Shown piece after piece: positions 164-27,658 of a stretch of DNA of 29,665 nucleotides. The notes beneath the pieces were generated by a model. That model searched no databases. It was not told where the DNA came from and worked only from the letters and a program-made list of their open reading frames with translations. Source of the DNA: a virus; the IMG/VR virus record IMGVR_UViG_3300046616_000309, positions 1-29,665 of that record. One strand, given 5' to 3'. A program made the translations under genes and the position numbers. The stretch's first letter is position 1. Each line of letters begins with the position of its first letter.

Positions 164-421
164 TTAGGAAGCTTGAGTTGAGAACGAGTTTGCTCTGACC
201 TTCGTATGTACTCCAGAAACATTCTCGGTAACGATCTCATCAATCGCATCCTGAATTGCTTGTTCCTGATCTGCATCAGACAGTTCAGGAGATGTACGAA
301 CTACTCGAGCCAACAGAGAATTCGAGTAGTACCCATGTGCCATGTCCCATGCCATCCACTCATCGTACTGGGTAACGGGACTGAATGGATTGTCAGTTGT
401 AGTAAGCATGAAGAAGTCCAT
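164..421 (-). CDS. Small conserved actinophage protein of unknown function
   Basis: 85 residues, acidic, with a conserved-looking N-terminal block LTTTDNPFSPVTQYDEW followed by a predicted helical region rich in D, E and Q. I recognise this pattern (LTT-DNP-F-P-TQ-DEW) as a family common in phages of Gram-positive bacteria, but its function is not known to me. The ATG overlaps the stop codon of the RNA polymerase-like gene (ATGA), and a GGAGA Shine-Dalgarno lies just upstream, so the two are probably translationally coupled. No membrane segment or signal peptide is visible. Confidence 0.8.
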   Translation of the reverse strand: MDFFMLTTTDNPFSPVTQYDEWMAWDMAHGYYSNSLLARVVRTSPELSDADQEQAIQDAIDEIVTENVSGVHTKVRANSFSTQAS

Positions 422-3177
422 CAGTCTCCTTCCCCTTTGAGTGCGGCCTGAACGGTAGACACAGAGACGCCCAGAGAGTCAGCGATCTCAGCCCACGTGT
501 ACCCTTGTGCGTGTAGGGACCGAGCCTTGCTCTCCTTGGCAGTTGTCATCTTCACAACAGCCCTTGGTGTAGCCAGTTCCTTAACCCTGTCAAGATCGGC
601 ATGATTGAGGATCTGGTCGAGTTTATGGGCCGTGATGGCACCTGCCTGAATGGCTGCCCATTCGGAGTCGGTGATATCGAACTTCTGCTTCTCTGCACCT
701 GTTCGAGCACGGGCTGCAGAAAGAGCCTGCGATTTCACTCGCTTAAGCTCTGCTTTGTTCTCCTTCTCCCGAAGCGATGGGTTCGCCTGGATCTTAAGGC
801 GAACAGTAGCATTCGCAAAGACCTGGGCTTGCCTTTCGAGGGGGGCGTTTCTGAGAGCCAGGGACAGTTTAGCATTGAGGGTCTCAACCGCTGAAGCATG
901 GGTCCTTTTTGCCGATGGTGAATACGGCTTGGACTTAATGGAGACAAGCTCTTTACGAGCCGCGTTTGCCAATGACTTCAGTTTATTGGAGTGGTCTGCG
1001 TAGACCTTCTCGATGACCGTTCCAGAAGACAGAGTATGGGCGTTGTCTGCTTCTGCCAACTTGGTGGTCTCGGTTTTGAACGGGATGACGTGCGTCTTGC
1101 CTTTTTCATCGACCCACGATTTCATTCTTCCAGTGGGTTCAAAGACTTTCTTTCCCGTCTTGGGGTCTATCGGACCGCCCTTGGATGCTGAGCGAGGTTT
1201 TCTCTGATCGACTTTCTCAGGTGAGGTTGCTCTCGAAATAAGAGTTCGAGCACCACCCAAACTCCTACCCTGGTATCTCTTCATGAGAGCAGGAATACCA
1301 TTGTCGTCACGAGAGCGACGCCAGTCGAGATTGTGTTTCTCGGCGTCGATCACCACCATCGAGTGCCGGACAGCTCGAGCTATCTCTTCTGTGCTGGCAC
1401 GTTGAATGGTCATGTCAGTGATGAGGTTGGAAACCAACCCCATCTGATAACCCTTCTCTCGATCCGTCATCCTCTTCATACCCTCATATGGCGGATACGA
1501 AGATTTAGGATCGAAGTTCCTCAGACCCTCCAGAGGCGACGTCGACTTGATCTTGCCTAAGTTGTTAGGGATGACAAGAACATTATCCCCGTCGAAGTCA
1601 GCTCCCGATAGACGTTCGGCAACCTTACTGTGTATGCCGATAGCGTCTTTCGAATCTCCCAGCAACTTCTTTGCTGCGGGATTACGGTTGTTCACCGTCA
1701 GCTCCGGAATCTCGAACGTCCCTCCGTGAGGGAAACGCACGAGAGCAACACGCTCGCCATCTCGAAAATTGGGAGCGTAAACCTCAGTTGGCTTCATGTC
1801 ATTGACTGGCATGATGACTTGAGTCTTCTGTCGAGGGAGATGCGCCGCCTTCAGATGTACTGCGGACGAATCTACACCATCAGCGTAGGACTCAAGAAGC
1901 TTCTTCTTCACCGAGGGATTAGTCAAAGCCAGGATGGAATCAAGCTCAGTCTTCTTCTTGGTGTATGTCAGATCGAGCTGTTCCTTGGCGAGTGTGGGTC
2001 GCTGCTTCGAAAGGAACTGTGACGACAAACTCTTCGACCACTCGTCCCACTTACCCTCCTCGTTGACAACGTTCATCGCCGAGGTGAGCTTGGTGATCTT
2101 TCCCGTCTGGTCGCGTTCACCGATCTGTCGAACAGTCGAACCGAACGGATTGTCCTGATCGACGTTTCCTTCTTTGTCTTTCTTAAGTTCCTTCATGGCG
2201 TCAAGCTTGTTGCCAGTGGAGTTCTTGTTCGTGTTGAAGAGGATGTCCACGCCATCTGGCAAGTCACGACCGTCAACCTTGATAGCCATACCCTTGAGAT
2301 AGTGCGAATCATCCACCATCACACGTACCTGCGCGTAGCGTGAACGGCCCAGAGAGAGGTCAGATACACCATCACGAACATACATGACCCCATCAGCTTC
2401 TGCGCCACCCTGATCGGCGTAGCGCACGCCAATGCGCTTAGAGCTGACAGACAGCGGAGGAACCATACCGAGAGAGGTCAGACCGCCATTCTCGGAGTAC
2501 TCCTGCAGTTGCTGAATGTTGTGACGATTACGTTGTACGTCACCCCATTCATTTTCGGGTTTGGTCAACACTTTCATGTTGGTCTGATTCCCGGTACCCA
2601 ACTGCTCGACCTTGACCTCGAAGACGTTGTAACCCTCGTTCTTCAGATTCTGCAGAGCACTGCGCAGCTTCGTGCTGGTGATGTTGAGTTGGTACTCAAC
2701 ACCGGCACCGACGTCAAGGAATTCCTTCTTGTTGACAGCATCACGAAGGGTGGTCGTGACGTTATCCAGAACTCTAACCTTGCGGGCCTGACTCGGCTGC
2801 AACAGAGCACGAACCTGAGATTCGCCGTTCACCTTGTAGCCGGCTTCGCGCATACGAATCGCGATAGCGCCGTTCGACAGGCCCTTGTCTTTCAGCTTCT
2901 GGGCCATGTGAATCTGATCTTGCTGCCGTTCGTTGCGAACGATGGTGCGAAGGTCGCGAAGCTGGGTGGTTGTGATACCCAACCCAGTAGCAATGTCTTT
3001 CTCACTCAGACCTTGCTTCTTCATCGAATCGGCTTCGTCCAGCAAGGAACGATTACGCTGGCTGGATTCGTCGTCCCCGCCAGATCCCCACGGGTACCGA
3101 CCCGAGTGCCGAGGAGTTCCGTAGTGGGAGATGACGCCTTGACTGGCTAGGTACTCATCTTCAGGGATGGTAACCAC
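421..3177 (-). CDS. Single-chain two-barrel RNA polymerase-like protein (YonO-like, DFDGD motif)
   Basis: 918 residues. Residues 522-538 contain SGADFDGDNVLVIP; DFDGD (527-531) is the metal-binding signature of the beta-prime-type double-psi beta-barrel of cellular RNA polymerases and of the single-chain YonO/QDE-1 group. A basic segment before it (YAPNFRDGERVALVRFPHGG, about 467-486) fits the barrel. Helix-turn-helix-like segments lie near residues 46-85, 90-128 and 885-915. The N terminus has HYGTPRHSGRYPWGSG, a block I have seen in large phage proteins of this type. The GTG start at 3177 has a strong GGAGGA site. The inferred role is DNA-directed transcription of phage genes; polymerase activity is predicted, not shown. 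It is the largest gene of the left operon. Confidence 0.75.
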   Translation of the reverse strand: MVTIPEDEYLASQGVISHYGTPRHSGRYPWGSGGDDESSQRNRSLLDEADSMKKQGLSEKDIATGLGITTTQLRDLRTIVRNERQQDQIHMAQKLKDKGLSNGAIAIRMREAGYKVNGESQVRALLQPSQARKVRVLDNVTTTLRDAVNKKEFLDVGAGVEYQLNITSTKLRSALQNLKNEGYNVFEVKVEQLGTGNQTNMKVLTKPENEWGDVQRNRHNIQQLQEYSENGGLTSLGMVPPLSVSSKRIGVRYADQGGAEADGVMYVRDGVSDLSLGRSRYAQVRVMVDDSHYLKGMAIKVDGRDLPDGVDILFNTNKNSTGNKLDAMKELKKDKEGNVDQDNPFGSTVRQIGERDQTGKITKLTSAMNVVNEEGKWDEWSKSLSSQFLSKQRPTLAKEQLDLTYTKKKTELDSILALTNPSVKKKLLESYADGVDSSAVHLKAAHLPRQKTQVIMPVNDMKPTEVYAPNFRDGERVALVRFPHGGTFEIPELTVNNRNPAAKKLLGDSKDAIGIHSKVAERLSGADFDGDNVLVIPNNLGKIKSTSPLEGLRNFDPKSSYPPYEGMKRMTDREKGYQMGLVSNLITDMTIQRASTEEIARAVRHSMVVIDAEKHNLDWRRSRDDNGIPALMKRYQGRSLGGARTLISRATSPEKVDQRKPRSASKGGPIDPKTGKKVFEPTGRMKSWVDEKGKTHVIPFKTETTKLAEADNAHTLSSGTVIEKVYADHSNKLKSLANAARKELVSIKSKPYSPSAKRTHASAVETLNAKLSLALRNAPLERQAQVFANATVRLKIQANPSLREKENKAELKRVKSQALSAARARTGAEKQKFDITDSEWAAIQAGAITAHKLDQILNHADLDRVKELATPRAVVKMTTAKESKARSLHAQGYTWAEIADSLGVSVSTVQAALKGEGD

Positions 3178-4105: not shown

Positions 4106-4630
4106 CTAACGCTCGATGGCCTCCCTGAAGATCTGACCCGTCGGCCAGACGTACGTGTTGTTGAGCATGGAGAGGTAAATCTCTACGTCGAGCACACCAT
4201 TGAATGTAGAAGCATGCATCGAGTTCTTATAGACCTCGCCAGTCTCGACATCCTCGATAGGGCGATCGAAGGTGGTGTGATCATCCTGGAACTGCCTCGT
4301 GTACTTCCGAGCGAACCATAATGGACGCCACATGAGATTCGTGTAGTGGTTGTCCGACCGGTCGCCACTCAAATTGATAGGGGTGTCGAAACTATCGTTG
4401 GATGGTCGAGGAAGAAACGCACTAGCGACCAGCAGGGGGAGTGAGCGCTTGTGCTGAATCGTCCTCGTCATAAGTCCAACCATGAACAGACCGCTGGGCT
4501 TCCTCGTGGGGGTAAGAAGGCAGCCGGTCTGATTGTTCAGTACGTGTCCCCAGTCGCTTACGGAGTATCCGGGGAAGTCGCGTATCTCCGCCCACCGTTC
4601 CGGAGTGGGTGAGAACTGCTCTTGTACCAT
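4106..4630 (-). CDS. NUMOD4/HNH-derived protein lacking the HNH catalytic histidine
   Basis: 174 residues. Residues 11-35 (ERWAEIRDFPGYSVSDWGHV) match the NUMOD4 DNA-binding motif usually attached to homing endonucleases. The following LPLLVASAFLPRP and INLSGDRSDNHYTNLMW align with the HNH fold (VHRLVAEAF and NHIDGD-x-NNH-x-NLEW), but the catalytic His positions are replaced by Pro and Asn. I recall phage relatives with the same Asn, so this is likely a stable non-cleaving family, perhaps a DNA-binding regulator (inference). The start has no strong Shine-Dalgarno; AT-rich sequence with TATACC and TATATA on the minus strand lies 17-40 nt upstream and could be a -10. Confidence 0.65.
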   Translation of the reverse strand: MVQEQFSPTPERWAEIRDFPGYSVSDWGHVLNNQTGCLLTPTRKPSGLFMVGLMTRTIQHKRSLPLLVASAFLPRPSNDSFDTPINLSGDRSDNHYTNLMWRPLWFARKYTRQFQDDHTTFDRPIEDVETGEVYKNSMHASTFNGVLDVEIYLSMLNNTYVWPTGQIFREAIER

Positions 4631-5067: not shown

Positions 5068-7314
5068 TCAATCACGAAACAGACCGGCATATTTGGCTTC
5101 GTTGAAGGTTTCTTTCGCCCTCAACGACCGTCCAATCGCCCTGTCGATCCACGAATCCGAGGTGAAATCGTAGTACCACAGGTCAGTGAACGGACTATTC
5201 AAACGGTCGATTCGCCCTTTCGCCTGCTCGCAAACCTTCCAAGAGTAGTTGCGAGAGAACATGATCTCCGCATCCGTCTCGATGCAGTTCCACCCTTCCG
5301 CTCCAGCGGTGTACTGGACTAGGTAGAGCCATCGATCCGTTCGCGGGACGGGCTGGTGCTTGTGACCGTTCCATTCCGCTATCGTCGCGGAGCACTCGGA
5401 TCCAGTACTTTTCCTTCCAGACTCGTCTATCACGAGCTCGCTGGATGCGTTGAATGGTGCCACAATCGAGCTCGAGAGGTTCTCCGGTATCGTTTCCGAT
5501 AACGGTTTCCCTGATGGGTCCAGTAAGCCATCCTTCGTAGCGTGGGTCGAAGTCATCGTTGAGGATGTGAAGTTTCTCGAGCCGCATTTTGTCGATGAAG
5601 AACCATTCGTCGGACATGATGCATCCCTCTTACTTGACTCGGCGATCTCGCATGGTGACGGTATACGTGATGAGTTTGTCGCCTTGACTGAGGTCGCCAC
5701 CGTCTTCGATTTCAGCGACGAGCCATGGTTCTTTGATGTCGCTGGGTTCAGCAAGAGCTCGAGTGGCTGTTCTGATCCATTCGCCGATGCTGTTATGGAG
5801 TTGATCCCACAACTCTGCGCTAAGCTTCTCAAACTCTCCAACTCGTAGTTGAAGTTGTAGAACACGATCAGCTTCGGATGGTTCTTCCATAGTTCTTTCA
5901 CCATCTCCAATCGACTAGGATCGCTGTTGACAACCTTCCTCGAAACAGAACACATCTCCGCGATATCTCGCAAAGGTCTGTCCTCATACACATGCCAGCG
6001 CTGCTTCAGAACCGCGTCGAGCAGCTCTTTGTCGTACTGCAGGGGTACCTCAACCTCTCGTCGGCGGGTATGCCGCACGAACGACATCTCGACAAGGAGC
6101 TGATGTCTCTGTCTCGCAAGGCGTCCGACATTGATGTAGCGGTCGACCTTGGGGAACTTGGTGAAGGTGTTGTAGACGACATGTTCGCGCTTGAAGTGTG
6201 TGCGATTCTTGTAGAAATTATTCGCCACAAAGACCGGAACGTAGTCCATCCACGTATCGCCGGGAGTAGCCGTCAGCAAGATCCAGTGGTTATGCTTCGC
6301 TATTCGCAGGAACTTTCGAGACCAGTCTCCAGAACCAACCAGTCTCTGCTCGTCAAATATGAAGAACGCTCCCGCCACATCAGCGTACTTGGCGATGTTG
6401 TTCCAGGAGTCGACGGTGAAGACGTAGGGATAGGCTCCGTTGGAATGTTTTCCGGCTTCAATTGCTCCTTCCAGTACTCCAACGTTCCGAATTCGGGATC
6501 CTGGCTCGCCACAGGATGTCGTGGGTTCCCCCAGCGAATCCCACCCCTCAAACTTGTCGTTGCCGGGATCTCCTCCCGCTTCGGCAAACCCGCGAGTCTC
6601 CGAACGTAGTTCGTGTCCAGTTCTCCGCGTTGGTACAGCTCGAATATCCGACTCCAGTTGAGTGGTTCCTCGTAGATTCCCTTCAGCTCGTTCTGGAGAT
6701 CTGCCGTCATGGCAGGTCCGCGACTCTGCCATATCCCCATGAAGGAATACTCCATCTCCAGAGCTCTCCACATGAGATCTGAGGGAACTTGACTGAAGAG
6801 TCTGAGCTCCTCCTGCCGATCGAATTTTAACGGCTGCGTCATGCTGTCTCGATACAGCTTGTTGAGATCTTGTAGAGCTTTGTTCGACGCGGAACGCTCC
6901 GGTTCCAGCACTTGAGTGAGAAAGCTCGTCAAGACTTTCTCTCCTGGATACTTCGGGTTCTCCGAGATCAGTCGAAGCTGCTGATCCATCTTCCAAGCTT
7001 CGAACAGCGTGATTTCTCCCCGCCACCAAAGATCCCGCATCGCCGGATACAGGTCCAGTTCGGGGTCCGATCCCGACTCGATAGAACTCATCCTGCCAGT
7101 CGAAGCTGTCTCGTTTTTTGGCGGTGGTGATGACGTAGACGTCACGGGGTGCCTCTCTCAATTTATAGTATTCAACGGCCACCCGGGTTTTACCCGATCC
7201 CACACCTCCCCAGAGGATCTTACCGTTCGCGAGCTTCCTCAGGGCTATTTTCTGATGCGGGTAGAGCTCATCACTCCCGAAGGTCATGACACTTGCATCG
7301 ACAGACAGCATCAC
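5068..7314 (-). CDS. SNF2-type (SF2) DNA helicase interrupted by two frame-preserving insertions
   Basis: 748 residues. Helicase motifs in order: LYPHQ (17-21), Walker A GGVGSGKT (36-43), FFIFDEQR (motif II, 317-324), LTATPGDT (motif III, 347-354), LIVFYNF (motif IV, near 485), YTAGAEGWNC (motif V, 668-677) and EQAKGRIDRLN (motif VI, 696-706). This matches the small phage SNF2-like helicases that I recall at roughly 450-500 aa. Residues about 84-293 and 501-642 do not look like helicase: they are rich in S, T, R and G, read like off-frame translation, and sit where relatives have short loops. Good protein-like sequence lies in other frames of the same DNA. The GTG at 7314 lacks a clear Shine-Dalgarno and overlaps the previous gene; ATG 7287 is an alternative. 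Whether the product is active is open. Confidence 0.8.
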   Translation of the reverse strand: MMLSVDASVMTFGSDELYPHQKIALRKLANGKILWGGVGSGKTRVAVEYYKLREAPRDVYVITTAKKRDSFDWQDEFYRVGIGPRTGPVSGDAGSLVAGRNHAVRSLEDGSAASTDLGEPEVSRRESLDELSHSSAGTGAFRVEQSSTRSQQAVSRQHDAAVKIRSAGGAQTLQSSSLRSHVESSGDGVFLHGDMAESRTCHDGRSPERAEGNLRGTTQLESDIRAVPTRRTGHELRSETRGFAEAGGDPGNDKFEGWDSLGEPTTSCGEPGSRIRNVGVLEGAIEAGKHSNGAYPYVFTVDSWNNIAKYADVAGAFFIFDEQRLVGSGDWSRKFLRIAKHNHWILLTATPGDTWMDYVPVFVANNFYKNRTHFKREHVVYNTFTKFPKVDRYINVGRLARQRHQLLVEMSFVRHTRRREVEVPLQYDKELLDAVLKQRWHVYEDRPLRDIAEMCSVSRKVVNSDPSRLEMVKELWKNHPKLIVFYNFNYELESLRSLAQSCGINSITASANGSEQPLELLLNPATSKNHGSSLKSKTVATSVKATNSSRIPSPCEIAESSKRDASCPTNGSSSTKCGSRNFTSSTMTSTHATKDGLLDPSGKPLSETIPENLSSSIVAPFNASSELVIDESGRKSTGSECSATIAEWNGHKHQPVPRTDRWLYLVQYTAGAEGWNCIETDAEIMFSRNYSWKVCEQAKGRIDRLNSPFTDLWYYDFTSDSWIDRAIGRSLRAKETFNEAKYAGLFRD
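5195..5617 (-). CDS. Nested ORF in helicase insertion 2 (b), unknown function
   Basis: 140 residues in the -1 frame relative to the helicase. The ATG at 5617 has a good AAGAGGG site about 7 nt upstream, which supports real translation. Residues 1-78 (MSDEWFFIDKMRLEK to YWIRVLRD) look like a genuine small charged protein; the remaining 62 residues are an off-frame shadow of helicase motifs V-VI. The protein-like part ends where the helicase frame becomes recognisable again (near 5391). I do not recognise the family. It may be a cargo gene carried by an insertion, with a tail added by reading into helicase sequence. Confidence 0.5.
   Translation of the reverse strand: MSDEWFFIDKMRLEKLHILNDDFDPRYEGWLTGPIRETVIGNDTGEPLELDCGTIQRIQRARDRRVWKEKYWIRVLRDDSGMERSQAPARPANGSMALPSPVHRWSGRVELHRDGCGDHVLSQLLLEGLRAGERANRPFE
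5630..5890 (-). CDS. Nested ORF in helicase insertion 2 (a), unknown function
   Basis: 86 residues in the -1 frame relative to the helicase. The first 25 or so residues are a shadow of helicase motif IV; from ELWDQLHNSIGEW onward it looks like a real amphipathic, acidic protein ending in YTVTMRDRRVK. The ATG at 5890 has only a weak GAAAGAA site, so the true start is uncertain and it may have lost its own 5' end when inserted. The stop is 12 nt before the next nested start. No known domain is recognised. Confidence 0.4.
   Translation of the reverse strand: MEEPSEADRVLQLQLRVGEFEKLSAELWDQLHNSIGEWIRTATRALAEPSDIKEPWLVAEIEDGGDLSQGDKLITYTVTMRDRRVK
6300..7091 (-). CDS. Nested ORF in helicase insertion 1, unknown helical protein
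   Basis: 263 residues from ATG 7091 in the +1 frame relative to the helicase. The stretch from DPELDLYPAMRDLWWRG to KPENIPTE (about 7065-6436, 210 residues) has the composition of a real globular, mostly helical protein rich in W, L and E; the helicase frame over the same DNA reads as low-complexity sequence. Both flanks of this ORF are shadows of helicase sequence, so the protein-like part coincides with the extra segment. No strong Shine-Dalgarno precedes 7091. It is either a nested gene, or a domain joined to the helicase through two compensating frameshifts. I do not recognise the family. Confidence 0.5.
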   Translation of the reverse strand: MSSIESGSDPELDLYPAMRDLWWRGEITLFEAWKMDQQLRLISENPKYPGEKVLTSFLTQVLEPERSASNKALQDLNKLYRDSMTQPLKFDRQEELRLFSQVPSDLMWRALEMEYSFMGIWQSRGPAMTADLQNELKGIYEEPLNWSRIFELYQRGELDTNYVRRLAGLPKREEIPATTSLRGGIRWGNPRHPVASQDPEFGTLEYWKEQLKPENIPTEPIPTSSPSTPGTTSPSTLMWRERSSYLTSRDWLVLETGLESSCE

Positions 7315-7465
7315 ACCACTTACATAATGCCGGCGTCTTCGCCCCCATCAATCCCGTGGCATTTTGACAGTAGGAGTGCTCGTCATGCAAACAGGAGGTT
7401 GAGTAGTAGTGAAAGAGACGGTGTGCGGCCCTCGATAAGAACCGCATCAACCCGACAAACCGCAT
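7271..7465 (-). CDS. Small Cys/His-rich zinc-binding protein
   Basis: 64 residues. The pattern CLHDEHSYC followed by ALCKWCDAVCRCKCHD gives seven Cys plus His in two clusters, typical of small actinophage zinc proteins. The ATG at 7465 has a strong AAAGGAG site. The 3' end overlaps the helicase start by 44 nt. It is the last of the run of small zinc proteins that begins near 11 kb. No enzymatic motif is visible; binding nucleic acid or protein is a guess. Confidence 0.7.
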   Translation of the reverse strand: MRFVGLMRFLSRAAHRLFHYYSTSCLHDEHSYCQNATGLMGAKTPALCKWCDAVCRCKCHDLRE

Positions 7466-7466
7466 A

Positions 7467-7673
7467 TCACTCCTTTTTCAGCATTGCCTCGGTGTCGATC
7501 TCCAGGGCAAGCCCGTAGTCCGAGTTCCACGTCCACATGATCGTGACGTGCTGGTCGGGACATTCTTTCATGGTCGCCTCGGGATCGTCGGTCTTCTGCG
7601 TGATCACCAGTTCCTTGGCACAGACGGGACAGAACTTCATCGAGTCCATGATGGAGAATGCTACTCTGACCAT
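7467..7673 (-). CDS. Zinc-ribbon protein of the local family
   Basis: 68 residues from ATG 7673, chosen for the GGAGA site 7 nt upstream; the frame is open further upstream but that part has no coding look. FCPVCAKEL and KECPDQH give a C-x2-C plus C-x3-H ribbon, followed by a beta-rich tail (VTIMWTW ... GLALEID). The plan CPxC-xxL, 15-25 residues, C-x(2-3)-H/C, then strands is shared with neighbours at 7690, 8089, 8355 and 9562 and the tail of the thymidylate kinase. It abuts the next gene. Confidence 0.75.
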   Translation of the reverse strand: MVRVAFSIMDSMKFCPVCAKELVITQKTDDPEATMKECPDQHVTIMWTWNSDYGLALEIDTEAMLKKE

Positions 7674-7689
7674 GGGGGTCTCCAGTGAA

Positions 7690-7911
7690 TTACCGATTAC
7701 TAGGACGAGGAAGAGAGAATGTGATATGCCAATTACTACCGGTATCGAACCATCCGAAGGCGCTGAAGCGTGCGTGGTTGTGCTCGCAGATCTTGGCACC
7801 CTCAAATTGATGAGCGTCAGGTTGTGTGCTGGGAACGAACACCAGCTTGGTTCCGCAGATGATGCATCTGTTGATCAGTTTCCACGGATTGTTCTTGATA
7901 CCGCGGGGCAT
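7690..7911 (-). CDS. Zinc-ribbon protein of the local family
   Basis: 73 residues. RCIICGTKL and ICEHNH form a C-x2-C plus C-x2-N-H pair, followed by aromatic strands (ARFSAFGWFDTGSNWHITF). The ATG at 7911 has a weak site (GGTGAA) and lies inside the 3' part of the gene at 7817-8092, which it overlaps by 95 nt, so translation may depend on coupling. Function unknown. Confidence 0.65.
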   Translation of the reverse strand: MPRGIKNNPWKLINRCIICGTKLVFVPSTQPDAHQFEGAKICEHNHARFSAFGWFDTGSNWHITFSLPRPSNR

Positions 7912-8092
7912 TGTTCACCGCCATTCTGCGCTCATTCCACTCACGACGACTGCGCGTGTCGAGGGCCAGCTTCTCTGCCAGCCCTCGAGCTCCCGCGGCG
8001 TTGACGTATCCGTCTTCTATGAGATTCTCGATTTGGTCGAGAGCATCGCTGGTGCGCGGACGGAGGAGATACTCATACCCTTCTAGCATCAT
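7817..8092 (-). CDS. Small unknown protein overlapping a zinc-ribbon gene
   Basis: 91 residues from ATG 8092, which overlaps the previous stop (ATGA). Residues 1-60 (MMLEGYEYLLRPRTSDALDQIENLIEDGYVN and on) look like a genuine helical charged protein. The last 30 or so (from NAPRYQEQ) are the shadow of the zinc-ribbon gene at 7690-7911, so the ORF may have lost its natural stop. A frameshift joining it to the ribbon is an alternative. No family recognised. Confidence 0.6.
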   Translation of the reverse strand: MMLEGYEYLLRPRTSDALDQIENLIEDGYVNAAGARGLAEKLALDTRSRREWNERRMAVNNAPRYQEQSVETDQQMHHLRNQAGVRSQHTT

Positions 8093-8358
8093 GGCTCGAA
8101 GAGATCTTTCACGATCGGAACGTACTCGCACTTCCAGTCGTCCTCGAATGACTCCTGATTTACACGAGAGATACGGAATTCACCGCACGTCTGATTTGTT
8201 CCCGTGTCGTCGAGACACACGTACGTGAACACAGTGGTCGGCGGGATGCGATTGATGTCGGGCTCACCAACGTAGGGGTTGTTGCTCGTGATGAAGATCT
8301 CTTCGCCGCACATCGGGCACGTGTCGATGTTCATCAAGAACTGTCGAAGTTTGATCAC
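8089..8358 (-). CDS. Zinc-ribbon protein of the local family
   Basis: 89 residues from a GTG start with a good AGGAG site; the start overlaps the previous stop (GTGA). TCPMCGEEIF, then VCLDDTGTNQTCGEF, forms a ribbon with a longer second knuckle than its neighbours, followed by an acidic tail with EYVPIVKDL. It is translationally coupled on both sides. Probably a member of the same small ribbon family; role unknown. Confidence 0.75.
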   Translation of the reverse strand: MIKLRQFLMNIDTCPMCGEEIFITSNNPYVGEPDINRIPPTTVFTYVCLDDTGTNQTCGEFRISRVNQESFEDDWKCEYVPIVKDLFEP

Positions 8359-8693
8359 TTCGCTATCTCCTTCTCGTTCTCGATCGTCTCGACATTCACC
8401 GCGAACATCTTGAACTCGAACGTCACATCACCGTCGAGCCACACCTCGGTCACGGTGAATTCGCCGCATTCGCAGTAACGGATGGCAGGGTGGTCAGGGT
8501 TGCTCTCCAACTCATGACCGCAAACGGGGCACACGCGGAGACGGTCCAGCGCGTCTTGAATATTCACTTTCATCACCAGCTCCTTTCGGGGGGTTGTGAG
8601 TGGTGGCTTGTTCATCACGAGCTCGCACATCAGATCGTTCGCAAGTCGTTGGTAGAAATACGATCGGGGGAGTCCCACGGTGACGTTGGTCAT
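8355..8693 (-). CDS. Zinc-ribbon protein with N-terminal extension
   Basis: 112 residues from ATG 8693. The ribbon VCPVCGHELE ... RYCECGEFTV (C-x2-C plus C-x-C) and a beta tail (DVTFEFKMFAV) lie in the second half. A very strong AAAGGAG site precedes an internal ATG at 8573 (MKVNIQDALDRL), which would give a 72-residue ribbon-only protein. The upstream 40 residues have normal codon third positions and close the gap to the next gene, so both forms may be made. Confidence 0.7.
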   Translation of the reverse strand: MTNVTVGLPRSYFYQRLANDLMCELVMNKPPLTTPRKELVMKVNIQDALDRLRVCPVCGHELESNPDHPAIRYCECGEFTVTEVWLDGDVTFEFKMFAVNVETIENEKEIAK

Positions 8694-8703
8694 GGGTCGA
8701 GCT

Positions 8704-9063
8704 CTATTCCTCGCTAGGAGGTGTGGTCATTTCTTCGGCGTTGAGGTACACAGCATTCTGTTCCGTGACGAATACCCCGCAGTATTGACACAGACCACGA
8801 ACGATAATGGTTGGTCCCTCTTCTGCGTAGAACATGCACCATGTGCCGTGACCCTTGTCCTCACATCCACATGTGCGAGTGTGGAGATTGCCGTGCTTGC
8901 CGTCAGGTCCAAGAGGACGATGCTTGTCCAGATCGTTAATGAGAGCCTGCAGTCGTGCGATGTGGACGTCATAATTATTCGGCATCCACATCGTCAGCAA
9001 CGCCTGTGCCTCACACAAGGTCTCACGAAGCATCTTGGGTGAACCGGGATAATGGATTTCCAT
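8704..9063 (-). CDS. Conserved actinophage protein with zinc-binding Cys/His clusters
   Basis: 119 residues. The helical N-terminal half ends in DKHRPLGPDGKHGNLHTRTCGC, a block I recognise from many actinophage small proteins. A further WCMFY and GLCQYCGVF add Cys pairs, giving a ribbon-like C-terminal half. The ATG at 9063 has an AGGGAG site. The function of the family is unknown to me. Its position inside the zinc-ribbon run suggests a shared role or repeated acquisition. Confidence 0.75.
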   Translation of the reverse strand: MEIHYPGSPKMLRETLCEAQALLTMWMPNNYDVHIARLQALINDLDKHRPLGPDGKHGNLHTRTCGCEDKGHGTWCMFYAEEGPTIIVRGLCQYCGVFVTEQNAVYLNAEEMTTPPSEE

Positions 9064-9068
9064 CGCGT

Positions 9069-9326
9069 CTACTCCCTCGCTGAATCCATGTAGAGCTGAT
9101 GCCAGACCTTGTAGGGGACGGTGGCGTGAGCTTGCACCCTCTTGACGACCAACTCGACGTCGTGGATCTCGTCCAAGCTACAGCCGATCCGGAGGATATC
9201 CCGGCCTTCGTCGTCTTCATCCTTGGTCGTGTCGATCACGTGGGCGAAGTAACTTCGCAGAATGCGATCCCACCCGATAACAACCTCTTCCGTCGGCTGG
9301 AACGGCTCCAAGTCGTATCTGCTCAT
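9069..9326 (-). CDS. Small acidic conserved protein
   Basis: 85 residues from ATG 9326 (MSRYDLEPFQPTEEVVIGWD); the longer frame to 9383 is a shadow of the previous gene. The start overlaps the previous stop (TGATG) with an AAGGA site 9-10 nt upstream. The block EEVVIGWDRILRSYFAHVID resembles a small family seen in Streptomyces plasmids and phages that I recall only as hypothetical. No Cys, no membrane segment. Confidence 0.7.
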   Translation of the reverse strand: MSRYDLEPFQPTEEVVIGWDRILRSYFAHVIDTTKDEDDEGRDILRIGCSLDEIHDVELVVKRVQAHATVPYKVWHQLYMDSARE

Positions 9327-9565
9327 CAGTGAGGATCCTTCCGATGCTTCGCCGAGATCTGGCTCGACAGCTGTTTCTCGCACGAGACCCGCCGGAGATA
9401 CTCAGCAGTGAGTTGCTTCTCCTGCTTGTCGACGGTAAAGCTCAGACTCTTGACCTGACGCTTGAGCCGGTCATTCTGGATGCCCAGGATGCTCGAGACG
9501 ACGAGCAGCAGAATGAAGGCCAGTACGATGCCCGAGAACACCAGCCAATCGGTAGCGCCACTCAT
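9326..9565 (-). CDS. Single-span membrane protein with coiled-coil tail
   Basis: 79 residues from ATG 9565 with a GAGAGGA site; ATGA overlap with the previous stop. A hydrophobic span at about residues 8-27 (LVFSGIVLAFILLLVVSSIL) is followed by a charged helical tail (NDRLKRQVKSLSFTVDKQEKQL) typical of a coiled coil. The short N terminus and basic tail suggest N-out, C-in topology. An Rz-like or other envelope role cannot be assigned. Confidence 0.75.
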   Translation of the reverse strand: MSGATDWLVFSGIVLAFILLLVVSSILGIQNDRLKRQVKSLSFTVDKQEKQLTAEYLRRVSCEKQLSSQISAKHRKDPH

Positions 9566-9942
9566 GGGGTATTCCTCTCCAGCGGCTCGAACGTGATGAC
9601 CGGTAAACCCTGGGCGTTCTCCGTGGTGAAGACGCGACCACATCCGTGAGGGCATTCTTTGATGTCGAGGACGAGAGACTCCAGCTTGGCCCGACACAGT
9701 ACACAGTAGAGCATCTGCTCATACAAGGTCTGTCGTGAGTCGATCTTGACAACAGGAGGTGGTGGAATCTCGAAGAGATTGATCATGCTTCCCGTCGCCT
9801 CGACCTTCTTCATCACCTCCACCATGGATCGCCACGCTTCATGATTGGCGAGCGTCACAGCGATCGTGGGTGAGAAGAAGATGCTTCCCTGCTTGGGTCG
9901 CATACCCATCGCATAGACGATCTTACGAATCTGATGCAGCAT
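9562..9942 (-). CDS. Zinc-ribbon protein with N-terminal helical domain
   Basis: 126 residues from ATG 9942, which has a strong TAAGGAG site and lies 20 nt inside the thymidylate kinase gene. Residues 1-70 are a mixed domain unknown to me (MLHQIRKIVYAMGMRPK and on). The C-terminal part YCVLCRAKL ... ECPHGCGRVFTTE ... GLPVITFEPL forms a C-x2-C plus C-x3-C ribbon and beta tail. This part closely resembles the C terminus of the neighbouring kinase (CPECNFEL ... CPDGHGEIY ... GFVTFEK), which indicates common descent. Confidence 0.75.
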   Translation of the reverse strand: MLHQIRKIVYAMGMRPKQGSIFFSPTIAVTLANHEAWRSMVEVMKKVEATGSMINLFEIPPPPVVKIDSRQTLYEQMLYCVLCRAKLESLVLDIKECPHGCGRVFTTENAQGLPVITFEPLERNTP

Positions 9943-10816
9943 GCTTCTCCTTACCGGGCATAACATCCTTCTCGAATGTCACGAAGCCATCGCGAGTACT
10001 ACCCAGAGGCGGAATGTAGATCTCTCCATGACCGTCCGGGCAGTAGTAGTGATTCGGATCCGCGAGCATTTGTCGAAGCTCGAAATTGCACTCAGGGCAT
10101 CGATACTGATACCTCATCGACGGAGGAGGAACAATTCCCGGGTTCAATCGTTCGTACCTCATCTGTTTCATCGCTGACATGACGCCGAGAACGTAATGGA
10201 GAATCTTGCTGTGCACCACCTCAGCCGATTCCATCCCGTCCATGGTCACCCAGGTCTGATCACGCTGCTCGAGGAAACCACGATGAACAGCGTGATGATA
10301 ACTCAGATCTTTGTCCTCGAAGCGGGTGGTCTTGACCTTCATCGCCCTCTCGAGACCGATCACAGGATCCACGTCGAGGAAGAACGTCAAGTCGGGGTAC
10401 AGGTCCGACGACGCCCAATCCGACACCGTACGAAGCACGGGTGCGTCCAGGCCGCTGGCATATCCCTGATACGCGATCGTCGAGGCGATATAGCGATCAC
10501 AGATCACCATCACTCCACGGTTCAGAGTCGGCCTGATGACCTTTTCCACGTGCTCAGCGCGATCTGCAGCGAACAGAAGAGCCTCAGCCTTCTTGGATAT
10601 AGGCTCGCCTCCACGATCCAGCAGAAGAGCTCTCAGGTTGGCTCCCAGGCGGGTATCGCCGGGCTCCCGTGTGAGGTGGTGATCGACGTTGTGGATCTTC
10701 AGGGCATCCGACAACATCTTCGCCTGGGTGGTCTTGCCTGACCCATCACCGCCCTCCAGAACGATGAAGAGACCTCGTCCTTCTTCATTGACGTTTCTCA
10801 CTGTTTTGCCCTTCAT
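9923..10816 (-). CDS. tmk: Thymidylate kinase with C-terminal zinc ribbon
   Basis: 297 residues; dTMP kinases are usually about 200-215. The P-loop LEGGDGSGKTTQ (about 20-31), the DR motif REPGDT, CDRYIASTIAYQG and LDVDP-x-GLER are the hallmarks of dTMP kinase, which makes dTDP for phage DNA synthesis. The lid segment and substrate arginines appear intact. Residues about 235-285 add a zinc ribbon (YRCPECNFELRQ ... YYCPDGHGEIY) and a beta tail, the same module as in the next gene. The ATG at 10816 overlaps the previous stop (ATGA) and has no strong Shine-Dalgarno, so it is likely coupled. The kinase call is firm; the role of the ribbon is unknown. Confidence 0.9.
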   Translation of the reverse strand: MKGKTVRNVNEEGRGLFIVLEGGDGSGKTTQAKMLSDALKIHNVDHHLTREPGDTRLGANLRALLLDRGGEPISKKAEALLFAADRAEHVEKVIRPTLNRGVMVICDRYIASTIAYQGYASGLDAPVLRTVSDWASSDLYPDLTFFLDVDPVIGLERAMKVKTTRFEDKDLSYHHAVHRGFLEQRDQTWVTMDGMESAEVVHSKILHYVLGVMSAMKQMRYERLNPGIVPPPSMRYQYRCPECNFELRQMLADPNHYYCPDGHGEIYIPPLGSTRDGFVTFEKDVMPGKEKHAASDS

Positions 10817-11055
10817 CGTACGATCGTGTGGGACGCATAGCGGCGATGCTGACTATTGCCCTGACAGACGTTGCCGTTGCAGTGGATACCGTTGTAGGTT
10901 AGGTGGTCTATCCGAAGACCACCACGATCATCAAAACGAACCACGCGATGGGTGTGCGTCTTACAAGGCGTAGAAACCAACCCCGGGGGAAAATCGATGA
11001 AACCGTATCCCGTCGTCCGCACAAATCCACGACGAACTTTATGCGAGGTTTTCAC
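10813..11055 (-). CDS. Small Cys/His protein upstream of thymidylate kinase
   Basis: 80 residues from a GTG start at 11055 with an AAGGA site; the longer frame to 11118 lacks a site. GYGFIDFPPGLV is followed by PCKTHTHRVVRFDDRGG and NGIHCNGNVCQGN, which could bind one zinc through Cys and His. I recall similar small actinophage proteins with a TYNGIHCNG block, function unknown. It is the first gene after the terminator at 11125-11153. Confidence 0.65.
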   Translation of the reverse strand: MKTSHKVRRGFVRTTGYGFIDFPPGLVSTPCKTHTHRVVRFDDRGGLRIDHLTYNGIHCNGNVCQGNSQHRRYASHTIVR

Positions 11056-11090
11056 CTTAGTGTCCTTTTGTTGATCTTGGCGAAAAATGT

Positions 11091-11118
11091 ATGGTATGTA
11101 ATTGTCGCCATGACACAA
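11091..11118 (-). promoter_or_regulatory. Possible sigma70-like promoter
   Basis: Minus-strand TTGTGT (11113-11118) and TACCAT (11091-11096) are 16 nt apart, immediately after a terminator hairpin and 36 nt before the GTG of the next gene. The match to consensus is moderate. Confidence 0.35.
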
Positions 11119-12050: not shown

Positions 12051-12305
12051 TCAGGTCAAACGATCCACGATCTTTTTGTACTCTTCATCTCTGAGTTCGG
12101 TGTAGTACTTGACCAACCGCGCTTGCACGAGCGACGAACGCATGCGAGGGCCGTCACGGACAATTCTCAGACACGCACCATAGAATGCCGCCCGAGCCAT
12201 GGAAGAATCCCCCGGGAGATTGTCGCGCTCCCTTTCTTGCTGGTATTCCTCCTCGAAACCGTCGATGACCGATTGAAACATGTGATCTCGCTGGGCACTG
12301 TTCAT
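12051..12305 (-). CDS. Helical protein of unknown function
   Basis: 84 residues. ATG 12305 overlaps the previous stop (ATGA) with a GAAGGGG site. Charged helical sequence (FEEEYQQERERDN, RDEEYKKIVDRLT). The plan of a short helix, a hydrophobic MARAAFYGACLRIV segment and a final charged helix resembles the upstream and downstream neighbours. No family recognised. Confidence 0.7.
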   Translation of the reverse strand: MNSAQRDHMFQSVIDGFEEEYQQERERDNLPGDSSMARAAFYGACLRIVRDGPRMRSSLVQARLVKYYTELRDEEYKKIVDRLT

Positions 12306-12472
12306 GACGGCCCCTTCACCTCCCCACTACCACTGCAAGCATCACACGTATCGGCGATGTATCCCGCGTTCCAGCACTCGTCACAATGCCCAACCTCGAC
12401 GATCACACCGTTGCACTTAGGACATTTACGAGCAGGTTTGGTTCCGGATCCTTTGCACGTCGGACATTTCAC
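12302..12472 (-). CDS. Small DnaJ-type zinc-finger protein
   Basis: 56 residues from a GTG start overlapping the previous stop (GTGA); AAGAGA lies 6 nt upstream. Four Cys pairs: CPTCKGSG, CPKCNG, CDECWNAG and CDACSGSG, the repeating CxxCxGxG plan of the DnaJ cysteine-rich domain, which binds two zincs. There is no J domain. It ends in ATGA overlap with the next gene. In host proteins such a domain binds unfolded or partner proteins; here the partner is unknown. Confidence 0.75.
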   Translation of the reverse strand: MKCPTCKGSGTKPARKCPKCNGVIVEVGHCDECWNAGYIADTCDACSGSGEVKGPS

Positions 12473-27131: not shown

Positions 27132-27374
27132 TTACGAAACTTCATTCGTAACTTTTTTCCCAGTGTTTCCGCATTCTTCGCAACGAGGATACGGATGATT
27201 CTTTGACACTCGGGGATGTTCGCATCGGGGATTACGAATTGCTGTGTAACAGGCGACGGAACGTCCACCATGATCGAGACAGCGATCGCCAGGGATCATC
27301 CGGACCGGACGTCCGGAATCGACACAGTATCGTTCCTGATACACCTTGGTCCAGACGATCCTTGGCGAACTCAT
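27132..27374 (-). CDS. Cys-rich zinc-binding protein
   Basis: 80 residues from ATG 27374 (MSSPRIVWTKVYQ) with an AAGGC site. YCVDSGRPVRMIPGDRCLDHGG, then ACYTAIRNPRCEHP and RCEECGNTG: six Cys and several His fit one or two zinc sites. It follows the membrane gene after 2 nt and is the last gene before the terminator. Confidence 0.7.
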   Translation of the reverse strand: MSSPRIVWTKVYQERYCVDSGRPVRMIPGDRCLDHGGRSVACYTAIRNPRCEHPRVSKNHPYPRCEECGNTGKKVTNEVS

Positions 27375-27376
27375 CG

Positions 27377-27658
27377 CTAGGCCTTCTTGGCCTCGTCGTC
27401 CAGCGAGCTGATGTCGTCCGGGACGTCGACCTGCTCGTCCTTGCGGGCACGCCACTTGTTGACGGCCCACAGTCCGCCGGCACCCAGCGCGGCGCCGCCG
27501 AGGACCGAGACGACCACGATCAGGGGAGTCTTGACGGCCAGCTTGGCCGGCACCTCCAGGGCGACCTCGACCGTCTCGACGACGGCGGGGATGTTCTCGA
27601 CGACCTTCTCGGCAGCCTTGGAGGACTTCGTGGAAGCGGTGGTGATGGTGTCGGACAC
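27377..27658 (-). CDS. Single-span membrane protein
   Basis: 93 residues from a GTG start with a GAAAGG site. The N-terminal 43 residues are helical and Val/Ala/Glu-rich (VVENIPAVVETVEVALEVPAKLAV). The span PLIVVVSVLGGAALGAGGLWAV (about 45-66) is followed by KWRARK and an acidic C terminus (DDISSLDDEAKKA). Positive residues after the span suggest C-in. It is preceded by promoter-like motif copy b. Confidence 0.7.
   Translation of the reverse strand: MSDTITTASTKSSKAAEKVVENIPAVVETVEVALEVPAKLAVKTPLIVVVSVLGGAALGAGGLWAVNKWRARKDEQVDVPDDISSLDDEAKKA

Follow-up and report, generated by a model that had tools for sequence, protein, structure and literature searches.

A multi-copy zinc-ribbon module in an actinophage-type virus and its occurrence as a tail on unrelated nucleotide kinases

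The closest described counterparts of the small phage module considered here are generic zinc ribbons, i.e. Pfam families such as Zn_ribbon_8 (PF09723), DNA_ligase_ZBD (PF03119) and Zn_Ribbon_1, which have the two-knuckle CPxCG plan in common with it, and the YfgJ-type zinc ribbons (PDB 2jrp and 2jne) together with small CPxCG proteins (8q5b, LysW). The module is repeated in a stretch of viral DNA of 29,665 nucleotides (29.7 kb; positions 1-29,665 of IMG/VR record IMGVR_UViG_3300046616_000309), hereafter the window, which belongs to a virus of actinophage type. It is predicted to bind zinc, reads C-x2-C-x3-[L/I], then C-x1-4-[C/H], then strands, comprises some 45-60 amino acids (aa) and is found at six places in the window (Z1 to Z6, Table 1), the last of which is the tail of a thymidylate kinase. 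There is strong evidence that the window copies share common descent and constitute one fast-evolving zinc-ribbon family, and its expansion lies, in the records searched, within one clade of 1706-like actinophages.

Three further systems resemble the module in part. Com of phage Mu is a small phage zinc finger protein. The domain SHOCT is presented (PMC3581485) as short, mostly C-terminal and combined with many different domains, in which it is like the module. Whereas SHOCT is widespread in bacteria, the module is, in the records searched, confined to one phage clade apart from one possible lone member. SHOCT is, furthermore, not known to be a zinc ribbon. Finally, the record notes of the Rhodococcus phages ReqiPepy6 and ReqiPoco6 list small genes that resemble one another and occupy the corresponding genome region (gp079-gp088 in ReqiPepy6), but the module profile has no match in ReqiPoco6. 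No published account of the module family was found among titles and abstract openings, a body of text in which subscription journals are mostly outside coverage.

At the level of profiles the likeness to known families is generic. Searched against the PDB, the module profile retrieves generic zinc fingers, with the YfgJ-type and CPxCG proteins at an expectation value (E) of 3.7e-4; 2jrp has C-x2-C-x3-L and C-x3-HG knuckles, as has the module, but these proteins are cellular and their matches depend on the knuckles. The 28 modules searched show weak matches to 47 Pfam families at E <= 1. None of Z1-Z5 exceeds a Pfam zinc-ribbon curated cut-off (Z4 reaches 17.9 bits vs 25.8), and the kinase tail Z6 stays under that of Zn_ribbon_8 (21.1 vs 34.4 bits). 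Among the PHROGs no convincing match was obtained: phrog_13559 matched 5 of the 28 members (best E 0.005) and phrog_4875 a single one (lowest E 0.0048).

An earlier note on this DNA, made from the letters alone, had proposed a common plan for five genes and the C-terminal end of the thymidylate kinase, and this was borne out at all six places by shuffled alignments and a cross-phage profile (in the case of Z3 by pairwise similarity only). Of the pattern given there, CxxC-xxL, the cysteine pair stands and the spacing has to be corrected to C-x2-C-x3-[LI]. Over the window and its relatives the first knuckle is present in 30/30 modules and the [L/I] position is hydrophobic in all 30 (L in 26); in one of them, row x72, the first knuckle was assigned by eye and an upstream CKFC was not counted. 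A second knuckle, i.e. C followed by C or H within 1-4 residues, occurs in 27/29 modules (Z3 left out). Counted per locus, the motif is found seven times in the window, one of these being in a DnaJ-like open reading frame (ORF) at 12302, and three times in the runner-up among the other 84 loci.

Common descent was examined by local alignment of 45 pairs, each compared with 500 full shuffles and 500 in which Cys/His were kept fixed. The observed score was reached by no shuffle of either kind for Z1-Z4 and Z4-Z6, by 1 and 0 for Z3-Z4, by 0 and 3 for Z5-Z6, by 0 and 5 for Z1-Z6, and by 3 and 2 for Z1-Z3. Two outcomes count against a shared plan: Z2 is weak inside the window (3/25 for Z1-Z2, 5/13 for Z2-Z3 and 309/359 for Z2-Z6, in the same order of shuffles), and unrelated Cys-rich controls sometimes score low as well (Z1-C10 6/3, Z5-C10 5/6, Z6-C9 7/13). 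The earlier note had also named the ORFs at 7271, 8704 and 10813 as further Cys/His proteins interspersed with the set; the former two lack a module match in the shuffles, and 10813 is probably not a gene because its codon-position guanine-cytosine content (GC) is flat.

A profile built from 23 modules outside the window was searched against 52,606 stop-to-stop ORFs and recovered five of the six window copies (Z4 1.6e-14, Z2 1e-7, Z1 1.7e-6, Z5 3.8e-6, Z6 1.4e-5), the best ORF outside the five-phage clade lying at E 3.1e-4. This test is not wholly independent, since the 23 modules had been picked with earlier profiles and by eye. Z3 was not recovered at E 0.5; by its pairwise similarity it is likely a member.

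The earlier note's condition for refutation, unrelated folds around the Cys residues, was addressed in part, by structure prediction for Z4 and the thymidylate kinase. The model of Z4 is confident (mean predicted local distance difference test, pLDDT, 83) and shows a small beta-rich domain with a helix at residues 5-11 and strands at 23-25, 28-33, 37-44 and 50-56. In the model of the thymidylate kinase, built with alignment rows that have no such tails, the tail has a pLDDT below 50 from residue 269 onward. A fold search with the Z4 model yielded nothing at E <= 0.001 in PDB or BFVD. Its best zinc-ribbon structural match, that of NudC (Z score 3.5, root mean square deviation 2.1, 41 residues), is a weak likeness, and the NudC ribbon differs in being part of a hydrolase.

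The primase-polymerase of the window shares ~54% identity with its counterparts in Arthrobacter, Gordonia and Rhodococcus phages, and the record notes of ReqiPoco6 point to Lactococcus phage 1706. The closest viral contigs are G001 (L086/L169), G002 (L087/L170) and G026 (L189, L194, L195), with polymerases 73%, 73% and 78% identical to that of the window, and further off G003 (L088/L171/L172; 63%). In a polymerase tree of 40 rows the five module phages form one side of a branch supported at 98/96 and the four expanded ones are grouped at 100/100. The earlier note had suggested checking whether relatives differ in copy number, and they do, with 6 modules in the window (Z3 included by pairwise similarity only), 8 in G001, 6 in G002, 9 in G026 and 1 in the outgroup G003; the counts for the window and G001 are lower bounds, because both are genome fragments. 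The four expanded phages can be viewed as natural replicates.

Profile searches of 79 whole related records (29 at threshold 0.1; 50 at threshold 0.01) gave a module match at E <= 1e-4 in 5 and none in the remaining 74, three of which (G022, G024, G025) contain one match each with E between 0.002 and 0.009. The match in G024, a 52-aa ORF (L116 20877-21035), is also found with the non-window profile (E 3.1e-4); it adjoins a DUF3310 gene (L116 20426-20671) on the downstream side, with two small ORFs before the helicase, and may be a lone module outside the clade. If it is genuine, the family predates the clade, and what is specific to the clade is the expansion alone. Other searches were negative: with Z4 and Z6 as tblastn queries no phage match had an E below 0.2, a query of GTDB genomes with the Z4 alignment gave 97 pattern matches of which 0 were confirmed, and a comparison of the stretch with 50,697 phage records by distant blastn matched at the helicase end only, among 20 of 42 matches listed.

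The serial duplication suggested by the earlier note holds in so far as one module with divergent second knuckles has been duplicated, and even doubled inside single proteins (L087 19880-20704, L189 4212-4979 and L189 6012-6362), but part of it is older than this phage. In the module tree the phage label changes 15 times vs a shuffled mean of 16.0, i.e. there is no clustering by phage, and orthologous sets extend across phages: Z4/v89/m87/h86 (fork 96/85, with f86 mixed in) and the pair Z2/n87 (fork 98/100). The Z4 orthologues in three relatives are 37-44% identical, their N-terminal region included, and Z2 is 46% identical to L170 7305-7619 of G002 over 63 aa (E 4e-26), i.e. 37-46% identity vs 73-78% for the polymerases of the same phages. 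Z5/s89 and k87/q89 were judged orthologous by order, partner domain and sequence; the tree supports them weakly or leaves them open. It follows from the unclustered copies and the cross-phage sets that much of the duplication predates the phage split; it started before the phages separated and continued in each line, probably with losses. Forks in the module tree are mostly weak (2/25 starred), and single duplications are therefore undated.

The earlier note had flagged the tail of the kinase; what is added here is that several unrelated proteins carry the module at their C terminus as an add-on. It is found alone, doubled, beside a NUMOD-like domain and as a tail on nucleotide kinases, namely once on the thymidylate kinase of the window (163.9 bits vs the PF02223 cut-off of 27) and, on DUF3310 proteins (gp1.7-like predicted kinases), once in G001 and twice each in G002 and G026. 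The DUF3310 assignments in L087 (48.1 bits), L086 (53.1 bits) and G026 are likewise above the cut-off, which is 24. The module is also the tail of a phrog_13867-type protein, in the window and, by eye, in G026 (L189 5623-6015). Both kinase types, thymidylate kinase and DUF3310, would act on deoxythymidine monophosphate (dTMP). Among 33 records, PF02223 is present in 2 (window, G003) and PF11753 (DUF3310) in 6 (G001, G002, G026 and three others), and the two occur together in none. The window thymidylate kinase alone, as a query against the viral contigs, found no relative; with the kinase alignment as query only G003 was close. As a separate observation, in a phage that does not belong to the clade a DUF3310 protein (L051 3670-4893) has, by eye, C2H2-like zinc fingers at its C terminus; zinc tails may be a recurrent feature of this kinase family.

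Of the functions that could underlie these arrangements we rank docking first, tentatively: the zinc ribbon would link nucleotide kinases, together with other early proteins, to one common partner. The module would then act by binding that partner, without catalysis; as a tail on the thymidylate kinase or on the unrelated DUF3310 kinase it would anchor the enzyme either at the replication machinery of the phage or at a target in the host, and the free copies would serve as loose adaptors or as competitors, diversifying fast like early host-takeover proteins. That two unrelated kinases have this tail in common suggests a single target for both, which offers a way to identify the partner. Most small phage proteins are orphans; here a number of them can be assigned to one domain family whose position, at the tail of nucleotide kinases, is known. 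Over 29 modules the net charge averages -2.2 (19 negative, 5 zero, 5 positive) and for the four Z4 orthologues it ranges from -5 to -10; given this acidity, protein docking fits better than general nucleic-acid binding. A rather unlikely extension is that of a transferable docking tag, which the clade would retain when one dTMP/nucleotide kinase gives way to an unrelated one, the free diversified copies flooding the infected cell and tuning, or competing for, the same docking site.

Several observations weigh against docking and the kinase exchange. The fold matches of Z4 are weak (best PDB Foldseek E 0.8) and two of the 29 modules, t89 and w194, have no Cys/His at the position of the fourth ligand. 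The tail of the G003 thymidylate kinase is zinc-like (CPTC...CQTC) yet unrecognised by the module profile, which limits the argument from kinase exchange to four phages, and the absence of the other kinase from the window and G001 weighs little because both are fragments. In addition, two proteins have the module ahead of an I-HmuI NUMOD-like domain, namely L087 22525-22905 (E 1.2e-6) and L194 559-1227 (E 4.9e-7). Such DNA-binding partners, in two proteins of two phages, are a pointer to nucleic acids, as would suit a nucleic-acid-binding zinc ribbon, i.e. a regulator of messenger RNA or DNA in the manner of Mu Com, with fusions that bring enzymes to nucleic acid. The same direction is indicated by L087 22906-23361, whose C terminus is a NUMOD-like domain where its homologue in the window, 8704, ends in a Cys-rich stretch. 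We nevertheless consider this function unlikely in view of the charges given above. Com is a single gene, unlike the multi-copy module, and its family is absent among the 25 of 47 matched Pfam families that were listed, which is not conclusive.

Equal in rank, and thus also on the unlikely side, is the view that the free copies act in host takeover or anti-defence and are diversifying, the kinase fusions having arisen incidentally when neighbouring genes merged. This would agree with the high turnover, low identity and variable copy number seen along the run of small genes in one orientation, and the lone G024 gene, located just downstream of DUF3310, is one deletion away from a fusion; the fusion has, however, been kept in four phages despite the changed kinase type, and the free copies have no convincing match (best E 0.017) in PADLOC, a library that covers defence and not counter-defence. 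Convergence, in which short Cys-rich ORFs are alike through their zinc knuckles only, is very improbable: the core is short, Z3 is missed by the profile and some controls are low in the shuffles, but it is rejected for Z1-Z4, Z3-Z4 and Z4-Z6 even when Cys/His are fixed in the shuffles, and the cross-phage profile recovery and the orthologous sets speak against it.

Table 1. Modules and neighbouring features in the window.
Feature	Coordinates	Strand	Remarks
Z1	7467..7649	-	stand-alone module, 60 aa from ATG 7649; CPVC...CPDQH; codon-position GC 0.49/0.36/0.82
Z2	7690..7911	-	stand-alone module, 73 aa
Z3	8089..8358	-	stand-alone module, 89 aa, GTG start; long linker between knuckles
Z4	8355..8693	-	short N-terminal region and module; 112 aa from ATG 8693
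Z5	C terminus of 9562..9966	-	N-terminal phrog_13867 domain, residues 9-47, E 3.2e-6
Z6	~9926-10141, C terminus of thymidylate kinase 9923..10816	-	kinase PF02223 E 4.2e-48
Small non-zinc gene between Z2 and Z3	7817..8089	-	by eye like L170 7480-7809 and a nested frame of the G001 helicase
Cys/His protein of different plan	8704..9063	-	homologue L087 22906-23361 (by eye)
Short Cys-rich ORF, outside module plan	7271..7465	-	pairs with Z1-Z6: best reached by 95/500 shuffles
ORF, probably not a gene	10813..11118	-	codon-position GC 0.55/0.43/0.52
Helicase	5068-7314	-	nested ORFs 6300-7145, 5630-5890, 5195-5617

All ORFs named in the earlier note are present, on the minus strand, and the module stretch lies on that strand between the genes for the polymerase and single-stranded DNA-binding protein and that for the helicase. 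The latter contains out-of-frame nested genes, as do its counterparts in L169, L170 and L189. A first insert, between the Walker A region and DSWNN, comprises 210 codons in the window, 60 in G001, 165 in G002 and 252 in G026; a second, before AEWNGHKH, was measured at 146 codons in the window and 212 in G001, and G026 has one by reading. Among 90 distinct helicases, where the median spacing between Walker A and DSWNN is 63 residues, these four range from 116 to 308 and the next has 85, the first insert being found only in the four phages with expanded modules. ReqiPoco6 gp099, chosen as a helicase by position, did not align as one and was dropped from the alignment.

According to the codon-position GC the first insert codes in frame +1 and the second in frame +2, while the helicase frame is stop-free in 6/6 measured inserts. 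When the nested frame was shuffled synonymously 4000 times, the helicase frame came out stop-free 1 and 205 times for the first and second insert of the window, 33 and 66 times for those of G001, and 5 and 0 times for the first inserts of G002 and G026. Both frames thus appear to be under selection. The nested protein 6300-7145 is like a free-standing small protein of G001 (L086 15571-15768; E 1e-6, in a single comparison), and it looks as if small genes were captured inside the helicase with its frame preserved. An Rfam scan of the window at gathering scores returned nothing, so that no listed intron family explains the inserts.

Some other genes of the window deserve mention. The minus-strand gene at 421-3177 encodes a large protein with, by eye, a DFDGD motif; the gene at the same place is annotated as RNA-dependent RNA polymerase in Secretariat and ReqiPoco6 and as DNA binding protein in Egad. 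The DnaJ-like ORF (12302-12472, minus strand) encodes 56 aa with several CxxC knuckles; its matches, to the central domain of DnaJ at E 9.2e-6 and to Anti-TRAP at E 6e-5, do not reach the cut-offs. A NUMOD4-like gene (4106-4630, minus strand; E 5.9e-4, below cut-off) has look-alikes in L169, L170, L171 and L189. A second small Cys-rich family, for which Pfam matches are weak or none, is recognised by eye from YCVDSG...YPxCxECG in the window (27132-27470, minus strand), L086 13750-13971 and L189 5194-5427, and occupies different places in the genomes of the different phages.

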